Below, piece by piece: positions 23,561-52,027 of a stretch of 64,000 nt of DNA; the first letter of the stretch is position 1; every line of letters starts with the position of its first letter. The notes under the pieces were generated by a model, which did not search any database, had not been told where the DNA came from, and worked only from the letters and a program-made list of their open reading frames with translations. The stretch comes from a bacterium (lineage in GTDB: Bacteria; Sysuimicrobiota; Sysuimicrobiia; Sysuimicrobiales; Segetimicrobiaceae), in contig DASSJF010000082.1 in NCBI GenBank assembly GCA_035691305.1, forward strand, positions 124,001-188,000. Reading direction: 5' to 3'. The position numbers and the translations under genes were made by a program.

Positions 23561-25308
23561 CCGAATCGTCCGAGCGCCCGTGGCGCGTCGACCGCGACGC
23601 GGGCATGGTGATCGAGTGGGACGCCGGCATCCGCATGAATGACGGCGTCGTGCTCCGCGCGGATATCTTTCGCCCCGACACGGCGGGGCCGCATCCCGTG
23701 CTGCTCACCTACGGCCCGTACGCGAAGGGCCTCCCGTTCCGGCAGGGGTACCCCGATCAGTGGACCCGGCTCGTGGAGCATCACCCCGACGTCGTGCGCG
23801 GGTCGTCGGGACGCTATCAGAGCTGGGAGCTGCCGGACGTGGAGAAGTGGGTCCCCGACGGTTACGCGTGCGTCCGCGTCGACTCGCGCGGCGCCGGCCG
23901 GTCTCCGGGCTTCCTCGACCCGTTCTGTCCCCGCGAGACGCGCGACCTCTACGAGTGTATCGAGTGGGCGGGCACGCGGTCCTGGAGCAACGGCCGCGTC
24001 GGCCTCGCGGGCATTTCGTACTACGCGATCAACCAGTGGCACGTCGCCGCGCTGCAGCCGCCGCACCTCGCGGCGATCTGCCCCTGGGAGGGGGCGGCGG
24101 ACTGGTACCGCGACATGACGCGCCACGGCGGCATCCTGTGCGACTTCTGGGGCAACTGGATGAAGAAGCAGGTCCTTACCGTCCAGCACGGCCTCGGCGA
24201 CCGCGGTCCGGTCAATCCCAACACCGGCCAGCCGGTCGCCGGTCCGGAGACGCTCTCCGAGGAGGTGCTCGCGGCCAGCCGCGCGGACCTGCGCGGCGCG
24301 GTGCTGGCGCGGCCGCTCGACGGGCCGTTCTATCGCGAGCGCTCGCCCGACTGGTCGAAGGTGCGCGTACCGCTTCTCTCCGCCGCCAACTGGGGCGGGC
24401 ACGGTCTCCACGCGCGCGGCAACTTCGAGGGCTTCATGCGCGCCGCGTCGACGGAGAAATGGCTCGAGGTGCACGGCCTCGAGCACTGGACCCACTTCTA
24501 CACGGACTACGGGCGCACGCTGCAGCGCCGTTTCTTCGACCACTTCCTTAAGGGCGAGTCGAACGGCTGGGAGGACCAGCCGCGCGTGCTGCTGCAGGTC
24601 CGTCACCCGGACCGTTTCGAGGAGCGGGCGGAAGACGAATGGCCGCTCAAGGGCACGCGGTGGACGAAATGGTATCTTGACGCCGGCGCCCGGACGCTCG
24701 CGGAGCAGGCGTCCGGCGCCGCCCTGTCCGCGGTCTACGACGCCGGCGGGGCCGGCGTGACTTTCTCGACGCCGCCGTTTCCGGACACGACGGAAATCAC
24801 CGGCCCGGCCGCGGCGAAGCTCTTCCTGTCGTCGTCGACGGCCGACACCGACGTGTTCGTGGTATTGCAGGCCTTCGACGCCGCGGGCCGCGAGATCGAT
24901 TTTCAGGGCGCGCTCGATCCGCACTCGCCTGTCGCAAACGGATGGCTGCGCGCCTCCCAACGCCGGCTCGACCCGGCCCTCTCCACGCCGTGGCGGCCGT
25001 ATCACGCCCACGACCACGCCGAGCAACTCGTCGCCGGCCGAGTCTACGAACTGGACGTCGAGATCTGGCCGACGTCGGTCGTGGTGCCGGCCGGCGGCCG
25101 CGTCGCGTTCACGGTCCTCGGACGCGACTTCGAGCGTCCGGGACCCGCGCAGGAGATCCGGTCGTTCGTCACGCCGTTTCGGGGATCCGGACCGTTCGTG
25201 CACACGGATCCGGACGATCGCCCGGCCGCAGTGTTCGGCGGCCGGAACACGCTGCACACCGGCGGGGTGCACTGTGCCTTCGTGCTGCTGCCGGTAATCC
25301 CGCGCTGA
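23557..25308 (+). CDS. CocE/NonD-family serine hydrolase (X-Pro dipeptidyl-peptidase-like)
   Basis: A 583-residue alpha/beta hydrolase of the CocE type, acting on an acyl ester or proline-containing peptide. The nucleophile is Ser154 in GISYYA, flanked by the family stretch VRVDSRGAGRSPG (oxyanion region). The C-terminal half is the jelly-roll domain typical of the family (from about residue 375). No signal peptide is present. It overlaps the second cupin by 4 bases. Confidence 0.88.
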   Translation: MTESSERPWRVDRDAGMVIEWDAGIRMNDGVVLRADIFRPDTAGPHPVLLTYGPYAKGLPFRQGYPDQWTRLVEHHPDVVRGSSGRYQSWELPDVEKWVPDGYACVRVDSRGAGRSPGFLDPFCPRETRDLYECIEWAGTRSWSNGRVGLAGISYYAINQWHVAALQPPHLAAICPWEGAADWYRDMTRHGGILCDFWGNWMKKQVLTVQHGLGDRGPVNPNTGQPVAGPETLSEEVLAASRADLRGAVLARPLDGPFYRERSPDWSKVRVPLLSAANWGGHGLHARGNFEGFMRAASTEKWLEVHGLEHWTHFYTDYGRTLQRRFFDHFLKGESNGWEDQPRVLLQVRHPDRFEERAEDEWPLKGTRWTKWYLDAGARTLAEQASGAALSAVYDAGGAGVTFSTPPFPDTTEITGPAAAKLFLSSSTADTDVFVVLQAFDAAGREIDFQGALDPHSPVANGWLRASQRRLDPALSTPWRPYHAHDHAEQLVAGRVYELDVEIWPTSVVVPAGGRVAFTVLGRDFERPGPAQEIRSFVTPFRGSGPFVHTDPDDRPAAVFGGRNTLHTGGVHCAFVLLPVIPR

Positions 25309-50730: not shown

Positions 50731-51279
50731 CTAGATCTCGTGCCGGTTCTGCTGGTCCGGCTGTCCCAGGCCGAGCATCTCGACCAGTTTCCCGAATCCG
50801 TCGGCGAGCGCCATGAACGCGCCGAGCTCGATCAGCTCCTCATCACTGAACTGCGCCTTCCACCGCCGGAGATGCTCGTCGCCGATCGAGCGGTAGTCTT
50901 GGGTGAACAGCGCCGCCATCTCCAACGCCGCGCGCTCTCGGGGCGTGAACACCGGGTTCCCGGGGTCCGACGTCGCGTCGAGCTTGGCCTCGTCGAGGCC
51001 CATCTGCTCCGCCACGGCGGAGCGGACGGTGCTTCAGTAGCTGCACGTGCGCAGCCGGGCCATGCGTACGCGCATCAGCTCCTTCAGCGGATGCCCGACG
51101 ATCCCGCCGTAGAACATGTCCTGCCATCCTGAGTAGAAGGCGCGCAGCGCGACCGGGTGCCGCGCCAGGATGCGGAGCAGCGTCGGGTTGGGCGCGCCGC
51201 GCCTGGCGGCATCGGCGAAGGCCTGCCGGACGTCGTCACTTAGATCGGGTTCTTTCACGGGCGCGATGCGAACGGTCAT
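50731..51279 (-). CDS. AhpD/carboxymuconolactone-decarboxylase-like protein with in-frame TGA, probable selenoprotein (CxxU)
   Basis: Read through one TGA at 51036-51034, this frame gives 182 residues. Residues 1-81 (MTVRIAPVKEPDLSDDVRQA at the start) and 83-182 form one continuous peroxidase/decarboxylase-like helical domain. The family redox motif, normally CxxC in a context such as CxYCxxxRS, reads C79-S-Y-U82-STVRS, so the TGA falls exactly on the resolving-cysteine position. A SECIS-like hairpin follows immediately (separate entry). The start ATG 51279 has a strong AGGAGGACG site. Selenocysteine would make it a thiol/selenol peroxidase or disulfide reductase. A nonsense mutation or a sequencing error at a TGC codon is the alternative. 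Confidence 0.78.
51006..51036 (-). promoter_or_regulatory. SECIS-like hairpin directly after the in-frame TGA
   Basis: Ten bases after the TGA, GCUCCGC (51023-51017) pairs perfectly with GCGGAGC (51012-51006) across the tetraloop CGUG. The loop guanine lies 19 bases after the UGA and is the second loop base, matching the bacterial pattern of a G in the first two loop positions at the distance seen in E. coli formate dehydrogenase SECIS. SelB would bind it to recruit Sec-tRNA. Confidence 0.6.
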
Positions 51280-51304
51280 GGGCGTCCTCCTAGTCGTTTG
51301 GCCG

Positions 51305-52027
51305 TCACGGCACCGAGACCCCCAGCACGTTGTGCGTCGTGACCAGCCGGGCCACCAACCCCGATGCCTTCGCGTCCTCGACGAACCCGCGGAGGAACTC
51401 GGCACCGTCCGCGCCCCGCCGGCGCGGCGTCCCGATCGACTGCTGCACCCCGGTCACCTGACCGTCGAGAATCCGCGACCCGGGCAGCGCGTCCGCCGCC
51501 GCGACGAGCCGCGGCTTGAGGCACGCCAGCGCCTCGAGCTTGTCCTCGGTGAAGAGCCTGACCGACTTCTCGATGCCCTCGGCGCGGACGAGCGCCGCCC
51601 GCCGCAGGGTGCGGCTGAGGAACAGGTCGTACGCGCTCTTTCCGGAGACCGCGATCCGGACGTCCTCCCGGTCCACATCCGCGATCGTCCGGATCGGCGA
51701 ACCGGCCGGCACGAGATACGTCACCGGGATCTCGAGGTACGCCGGGCTGAACGCGATCTCGGCGGCGCGCTGCGGCTCGTTGCCGAGAAACGCGATGTCC
51801 CAGCGGTCGTCCCGCACCGCGTCCGCGAGCGGTCCCGCCTGCGGAAACCGCACGAACTCGACCCGGACGGCGAGGCGGCGCGCGATCTCCCGGCCGAGGT
51901 CGGGCGCGACGCCCCGCGACGCGCCGTCCGGCGCGTCGGCGAGCACGAGGAGGAAGTTTCCATAGTTGAGCCCAACGCGGAGCGTGCCCGAGGGCGCGAG
52001 CGCCGCGCGGGCGTCAGGAGTGGCCAA
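51305..52027 (-). CDS. Family-3 solute-binding-like protein without signal peptide
   Basis: A 240-residue type II periplasmic-binding fold of the amino-acid type: TLRVGLNYGNFLLV at the start, GVAPDLGREIARRLAVRVEFVRF, WDIAFLGNEPQRAAEIAFSPAYL and the hinge segment EDVRIAVSGKSAYDL. The N terminus MATPDARAALAPS is not a signal peptide, so the protein is probably cytoplasmic and may act as a sensor or enzyme. The ATG at 52027 lies inside the end of the SDR gene. No permease gene is near. Confidence 0.8.
   Translation of the reverse strand: MATPDARAALAPSGTLRVGLNYGNFLLVLADAPDGASRGVAPDLGREIARRLAVRVEFVRFPQAGPLADAVRDDRWDIAFLGNEPQRAAEIAFSPAYLEIPVTYLVPAGSPIRTIADVDREDVRIAVSGKSAYDLFLSRTLRRAALVRAEGIEKSVRLFTEDKLEALACLKPRLVAAADALPGSRILDGQVTGVQQSIGTPRRRGADGAEFLRGFVEDAKASGLVARLVTTHNVLGVSVP

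Follow-up and report, generated by a model that had tools for sequence, protein, structure and literature searches.

A probable AhpD-like selenoprotein with a CxxU redox motif in the uncultured phylum Candidatus Sysuimicrobiota

On the minus strand of the 64,000-nucleotide stretch of bacterial DNA analysed here (the window), two open frames are separated by a single TGA, which raises the question of whether this codon ends a gene or is decoded as selenocysteine (Sec). A preliminary description of the locus proposed one gene of 182 residues in which Sec replaces the second cysteine of a CxxC motif. Our analysis leads to the same reading, in which residue 82 of an AhpD-like selenoprotein is Sec, and we assign to it a probability of about 0.95 (Table 1). 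When TGA is translated as Sec, the gene has only one in-frame TGA and the motif reads C79-S-Y-U82. As first described, a ribosome site precedes the start and none precedes the downstream half; the Shine-Dalgarno sequence lies 6 nt before the ATG. The Pfam CMD domain (PF02627) is matched by the joined protein (31.5 bits versus a gathering cut-off of 23) and by neither half alone, which supports the earlier joining of the two frames into one gene. Taken alone, the open frame beyond the TGA is weak evidence for a single gene, a run of 99 open codons having a chance probability of about 0.15 at 70.5% G+C. Chance is excluded because homology extends over both sides of the TGA and because all orthologs have the same TGA.

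Table 1. Coordinates of the predicted selenoprotein gene and its elements, numbered from the first letter of the window.
Feature	Position	Strand	Description	Evidence
AhpD-like selenoprotein CDS (predicted)	50731..51279	(-)	182 aa with Sec82, TAG stop	TGA=U translation, Pfam CMD, orthologs
In-frame TGA	51034..51036	(-)	codon 82, predicted Sec	TGA in 9/9 distinct orthologs; Cys in distant homologues; tRNA-Sec, selA, selB and selD in genome
Shine-Dalgarno AGGAGG	51286..51291	(-)	upstream of the single start ATG	read directly
Cys79 codon TGC	51043..51045	(-)	CxxU partner of Sec82	invariant among orthologs
Glu67 codon	51079..51081	(-)	counterpart of the AhpD proton-relay Glu	invariant among orthologs; 12 residues before Cys79
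bSECIS hairpin (putative)	51006..51023	(-)	GCTCCGC-CGTG-GCGGAGC	7-bp stem, 4-nt loop CGUG, G at loop position 2

The nine distinct sequences that share the TGA are our gene, those of seven other genomes of the family (70–87% identity) and that of one Chloroflexota MAG, Thermoflexus (55%); loci L022, L024 and L025 are contigs of G010, G008 and G011 and were counted once (L022 and L025 being checked by sequence). The downstream half is conserved like the upstream half (76–85% between phylum orthologs). Codon 82 aligns with the second Cys of the CxxC motif in seven distant homologues, from Caulobacter, Massilia, Natribaculum, Deinococcus, Novosphingobium, Nonomuraea and Caballeronia, so that the substitution of CxxU for CxxC suggested from the window holds up in the alignment. 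We searched 43 genomes of the phylum and saw no Cys ortholog of the CSYU gene among them. These genomes yielded 25 matches at E≤1e-12, of which 24 span the site, each with one TGA placed individually, the remaining match being a fragment that covers residues 1–43. The matches form three subfamilies, CSYU/CGYU (to which the gene of the window belongs), CEYU and CPFU, and the source genome has one member of each, the gene of the window being on contig C82. On a tree of Sec and Cys proteins, five Sec/Cys changes are needed; well-supported branches impose four or more of these, while long branches leave the deep branching order unsure. No relatives of the gene were found among phages and viral contigs.

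The machinery for decoding UGA as Sec is present in the source genome, a 3.58-Mb draft that is 96% complete. It carries a tRNA-Sec with anticodon UCA (68.7 bits versus a cut-off of 47), a cluster on contig C69 that contains both selB (337 bits when joined) and selA (552 bits), and selD (393 bits), so that all four components named for checking in the preliminary description score above curated cut-offs (4/4). The selD product itself has an in-frame TGA in CAGUASK (L064, G000:C40:5000-12000), and two formate dehydrogenase alpha (FdhA) frames have one in UHAPS and UHGPT (L101, G000:C27; L102, G000:C46), positions that are the classical Sec sites of SelD and of formate dehydrogenases (U-H-x-P). 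Because tRNA-Sec, selA, selB and selD are present and because the TGAs of SelD and FdhA fall at these sites, the organism almost certainly makes Sec, as had been supposed. Two more AhpD-like genes of this genome, with CEYU (C72:6621-7109, L051) and CPFU (C41:88159-88635, L092), each have a single in-frame TGA in place of the second Cys and their own downstream hairpin, which likely brings its selenoprotein genes to at least six (three AhpD-like, SelD and two FdhA). Elsewhere in the phylum, TGA-bearing paralogs were found in genomes without detected selA (genus g17 and G018). We attribute the missing Sec genes of G028 and G018 to contig edges. The G028 contig stops 90 nt past tRNA-Sec, where the sister genus has selB-selA, and the start of the G018 contig truncates selB. 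G031 and G034, to which G028 is a sister draft (loci L040 and L041; drafts 94% and 72% complete) carry CEYU TGA genes, and tRNA-Sec, selB and selA were not found in these two drafts.

The hairpin begins 10 nt past the TGA and its loop 18 nt past the UGA, a spacing of 17 nt. The bacterial SECIS rules quoted in PMC13188914 call for a loop of 3–9 nt, a stem of 4–16 bp, a G at one of the first two positions of the loop, a distance of 16–37 nt from the UGA and an energy of -7.5 kcal/mol or lower. Checked by hand, our hairpin (7 bp, CGUG, 17 nt, -12.4 kcal/mol) agrees with all of them, in keeping with the original observation of a G-containing loop at SECIS distance. The 51-nt stretch that contains it folds with z = -3.9 versus dinucleotide shuffles; about 4% of synonymous recodings of the same peptide yield a hairpin at least as stable, and a single copy, given the peptide, proves little. 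Comparison of seven orthologs gave a synonymous-change rate of 0.21 at codons 83–96 versus roughly 0.4–0.6 across most of the gene. Of 168 sliding windows, every one of the 12 with the lowest rates overlaps the hairpin stretch, and the minimum lies over codons 77–96. The hairpin register pairs in 98% of cells across nine UGA sequences (eight orthologs and an Actinomycetota gene) and includes one compensatory double change (C-G to U-A in G009); covariation among close orthologs is limited to this single pair and is not significant versus shuffles (65/500). A second register is common to the CEYU paralogs and the ortholog from Thermoflexus. Between these paralogs and the Chloroflexota ortholog it shows four compensatory pairs (0/500 shuffles), all of which stem from one divergent sequence. 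In each of the UGA genes examined, a hairpin of 5 bp or more lies at a suitable distance, and a G occupies one of the first two positions of its loop, except for one or two among the weaker hairpins. A search of the window hairpin against Rfam gave no match to a known RNA family.

Two other readings of the TGA have to be weighed against this evidence. The codon could be a genuine stop or stem from an error in sequencing, so that the locus would hold a pseudogene or a pair of separate short genes, and a downstream GTG (51013–51015) would indeed start a 94-aa ORF. However, neither half alone has a CMD match, no ribosome site precedes the second half, the genome has the full Sec machinery, and the presence of the identical TGA in nine distinct orthologs from different genomes, with both halves equally conserved around it, rules out a pseudogene, a split gene and a sequencing error; we regard this reading as very improbable. 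Smaller still is the probability that UGA specifies a different amino acid, through code reassignment or near-cognate read-through, an idea for which we found nothing in support beyond the open frame itself. The adjoining gene ends at a TGA used as a normal stop (51305–51307), the tRNA-Sec has the UCA anticodon, and the in-frame UGAs fall at Cys/Sec positions in the AhpD-like genes, SelD and FdhA; the normal stop, SelD and FdhA together rule out code reassignment.

What kind of protein, then, would the recoded gene encode? The AlphaFold2 model (pLDDT 86, pTM 0.82) matches AhpD-like and peroxidase-related structures of the PDB in Foldseek with TM of about 0.8, and with the Pfam match it supports a confident prediction of the AhpD/"peroxidase-related" (CMD) fold that the preliminary description had recognised. 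The best NCBIfam match is NF053654, 'YciW-related (seleno)protein' (E 1.5e-20, residues 4–165), but its 73.7 bits versus a curated cut-off of 310 place the protein outside that family; TIGR01926 (peroxidase-related enzyme) likewise scores 47.6 bits, below its curated cut-off of 81.8. The proton relay of AhpD/PA0269 consists of Glu, Cys, His/Tyr, Cys and His (PMC3141380). Our protein has a predicted PA0269-like fold and shares with M. tuberculosis AhpD and PA0269 the two-helix active-site motif Glu-x11-Cys-x-Tyr/His-Cys, with Glu67, Cys79, Tyr81 and U82 present and with Glu67 and Cys79 spaced as Glu118 and Cys130 of AhpD (PMC3141380). It differs from them in having Sec for the second Cys, Arg86 for the relay His and about 25% identity to PA0269. 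This Arg occurs in all orthologs, and the AhpD active-site signature (Glu, CxxC, His) is thus incomplete; the same position is Arg in the CEYU paralogs, Asn in CPFU and Arg in an archaeal Cys homologue with CAYC. Because Arg86 stands in for the relay His, AhpD-type peroxidase activity is not assured and the corresponding chemistry may not apply. The likeness to AhpD is thus one of fold and redox motif, from which the AhpD reaction itself is inferred, and a role as a thiol/selenol oxidoreductase is plausible.

The mechanism that we propose starts with SelB, which would bind the hairpin just 3' of UGA-82 and bring Sec-tRNA-Sec, so that the ribosome would put Sec at the second position of the redox pair C79-S-Y-U82. 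The selenol would most likely attack a small molecule that is oxidised or electrophilic (a peroxide or a disulfide), a selenenylsulfide would then form between Sec82 and Cys79, and cellular thiols would reset it. The gene, its UGA, the hairpin and the Sec machinery are seen in the sequence; the insertion, the redox cycle and the substrate are inferred. A peroxide or disulfide is our somewhat favoured candidate for the substrate.

It is unlikely, in our view, that the selenoprotein has another target and serves as a Bmp8-like thiol/selenol reductive dehalogenase or as a catabolic redox accessory. The debrominase Bmp8 (PDB 6OHI/6OHJ) is the top Foldseek match (TM 0.82), its CxxC aligns with the CxxU, and it too is without His at the relay position (Phe in the alignment). 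However, several other AhpD-like structures score nearly equally, Bmp8 is only 18% identical and has Cys where our protein would have Sec, and a halogenated substrate is not indicated here. The surroundings of the gene invite a catabolic role: a type II haloacid dehalogenase adjoins it in the window, and amidohydrolases are neighbours in G003, G009 and Thermoflexus. Yet the dehalogenase neighbour is kept in G002 only, among the compared loci. The full same-strand order in the window is MOSC, SDR, family-3 solute-binding protein, AhpD-like gene and type II haloacid dehalogenase, with the solute-binding-protein gene separating the SDR from the AhpD-like gene. The congener G002 keeps most of these neighbours, its SDR being a weak 76-aa match only, and none of them (MOSC, SDR, solute-binding protein, dehalogenase) is present at the loci of G001, G003, G009 and G011. 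The MOSC-SDR-dehalogenase operon proposed earlier is therefore not supported as a functional unit and, since neighbourhoods vary among genomes, is no guide to function. Zinc alcohol dehydrogenase, amidohydrolase and S15 peptidase surround the gene in both G003 and Thermoflexus, G011 (a short contig) has the amidohydrolase in common with this set, and a different amidohydrolase adjoins the gene in G009, so that the AhpD-like gene is found in varied, mostly catabolic neighbourhoods. No ahpC was found among the identified neighbouring genes. We think it very unlikely that a Sec enzyme of AhpD fold that has lost the relay His uses its selenol for reductive dehalogenation or works as another non-peroxide reductase; if it did, a selenol reductive dehalogenase of this kind would be the AhpD-fold counterpart of the selenoenzyme deiodinase.

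Catalogues from 2005 onwards, those of the Sargasso Sea, GOS and later sets (PMC1088965, PMC2398784, PMC13188914), include AhpD-like or CMD-like CxxU selenoproteins, which bears out the earlier statement that they have been reported in bacteria, and the predicted protein of the window is a new addition to them. It resembles the catalogued proteins in its AhpD/CMD domain, in Sec as the second residue of CxxU and in a bSECIS element right after the UGA; compared by description only, it differs in forming a Sysuimicrobiota/Thermoflexus subfamily, in its sub-TIGR01926 score and in its Arg for the relay His. The main text of the paper describing Ca. Sysuimicrobiota (CSP1-3) contains no word starting with 'selen', and our analysis adds well-supported Sec proteins for this uncultured phylum. 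Several parallel Sec AhpD-like subfamilies (CSYU/CGYU, CEYU and CPFU) appear to coexist there, with UGA in every member found; automatic annotation normally splits such UGA genes in two or misses them.

Several further observations accompany these results. The Thermoflexus and G003 loci (L023 and L059) have in common a four-gene set, the CxxU gene included, and this gene group may have been transferred between phyla. Some more distant AhpD-like genes, with CHYU (L047, in G012) and CTYU (L050, in G040), retain the relay His; since their relatives in G019 and G025 have CHYC, a separate Cys/Sec switch is suggested in this group. A CMD-family gene of an Actinomycetota MAG (MAG54, L026, positions 22–492) has CNYU and a SECIS-like hairpin. 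Finally, another TGA of the window, at 25306–25308 on the plus strand, joins two open stretches whose composition is coding-like (659 and 702 codons); it has no Cys nearby and probably reflects two genes that share one frame.
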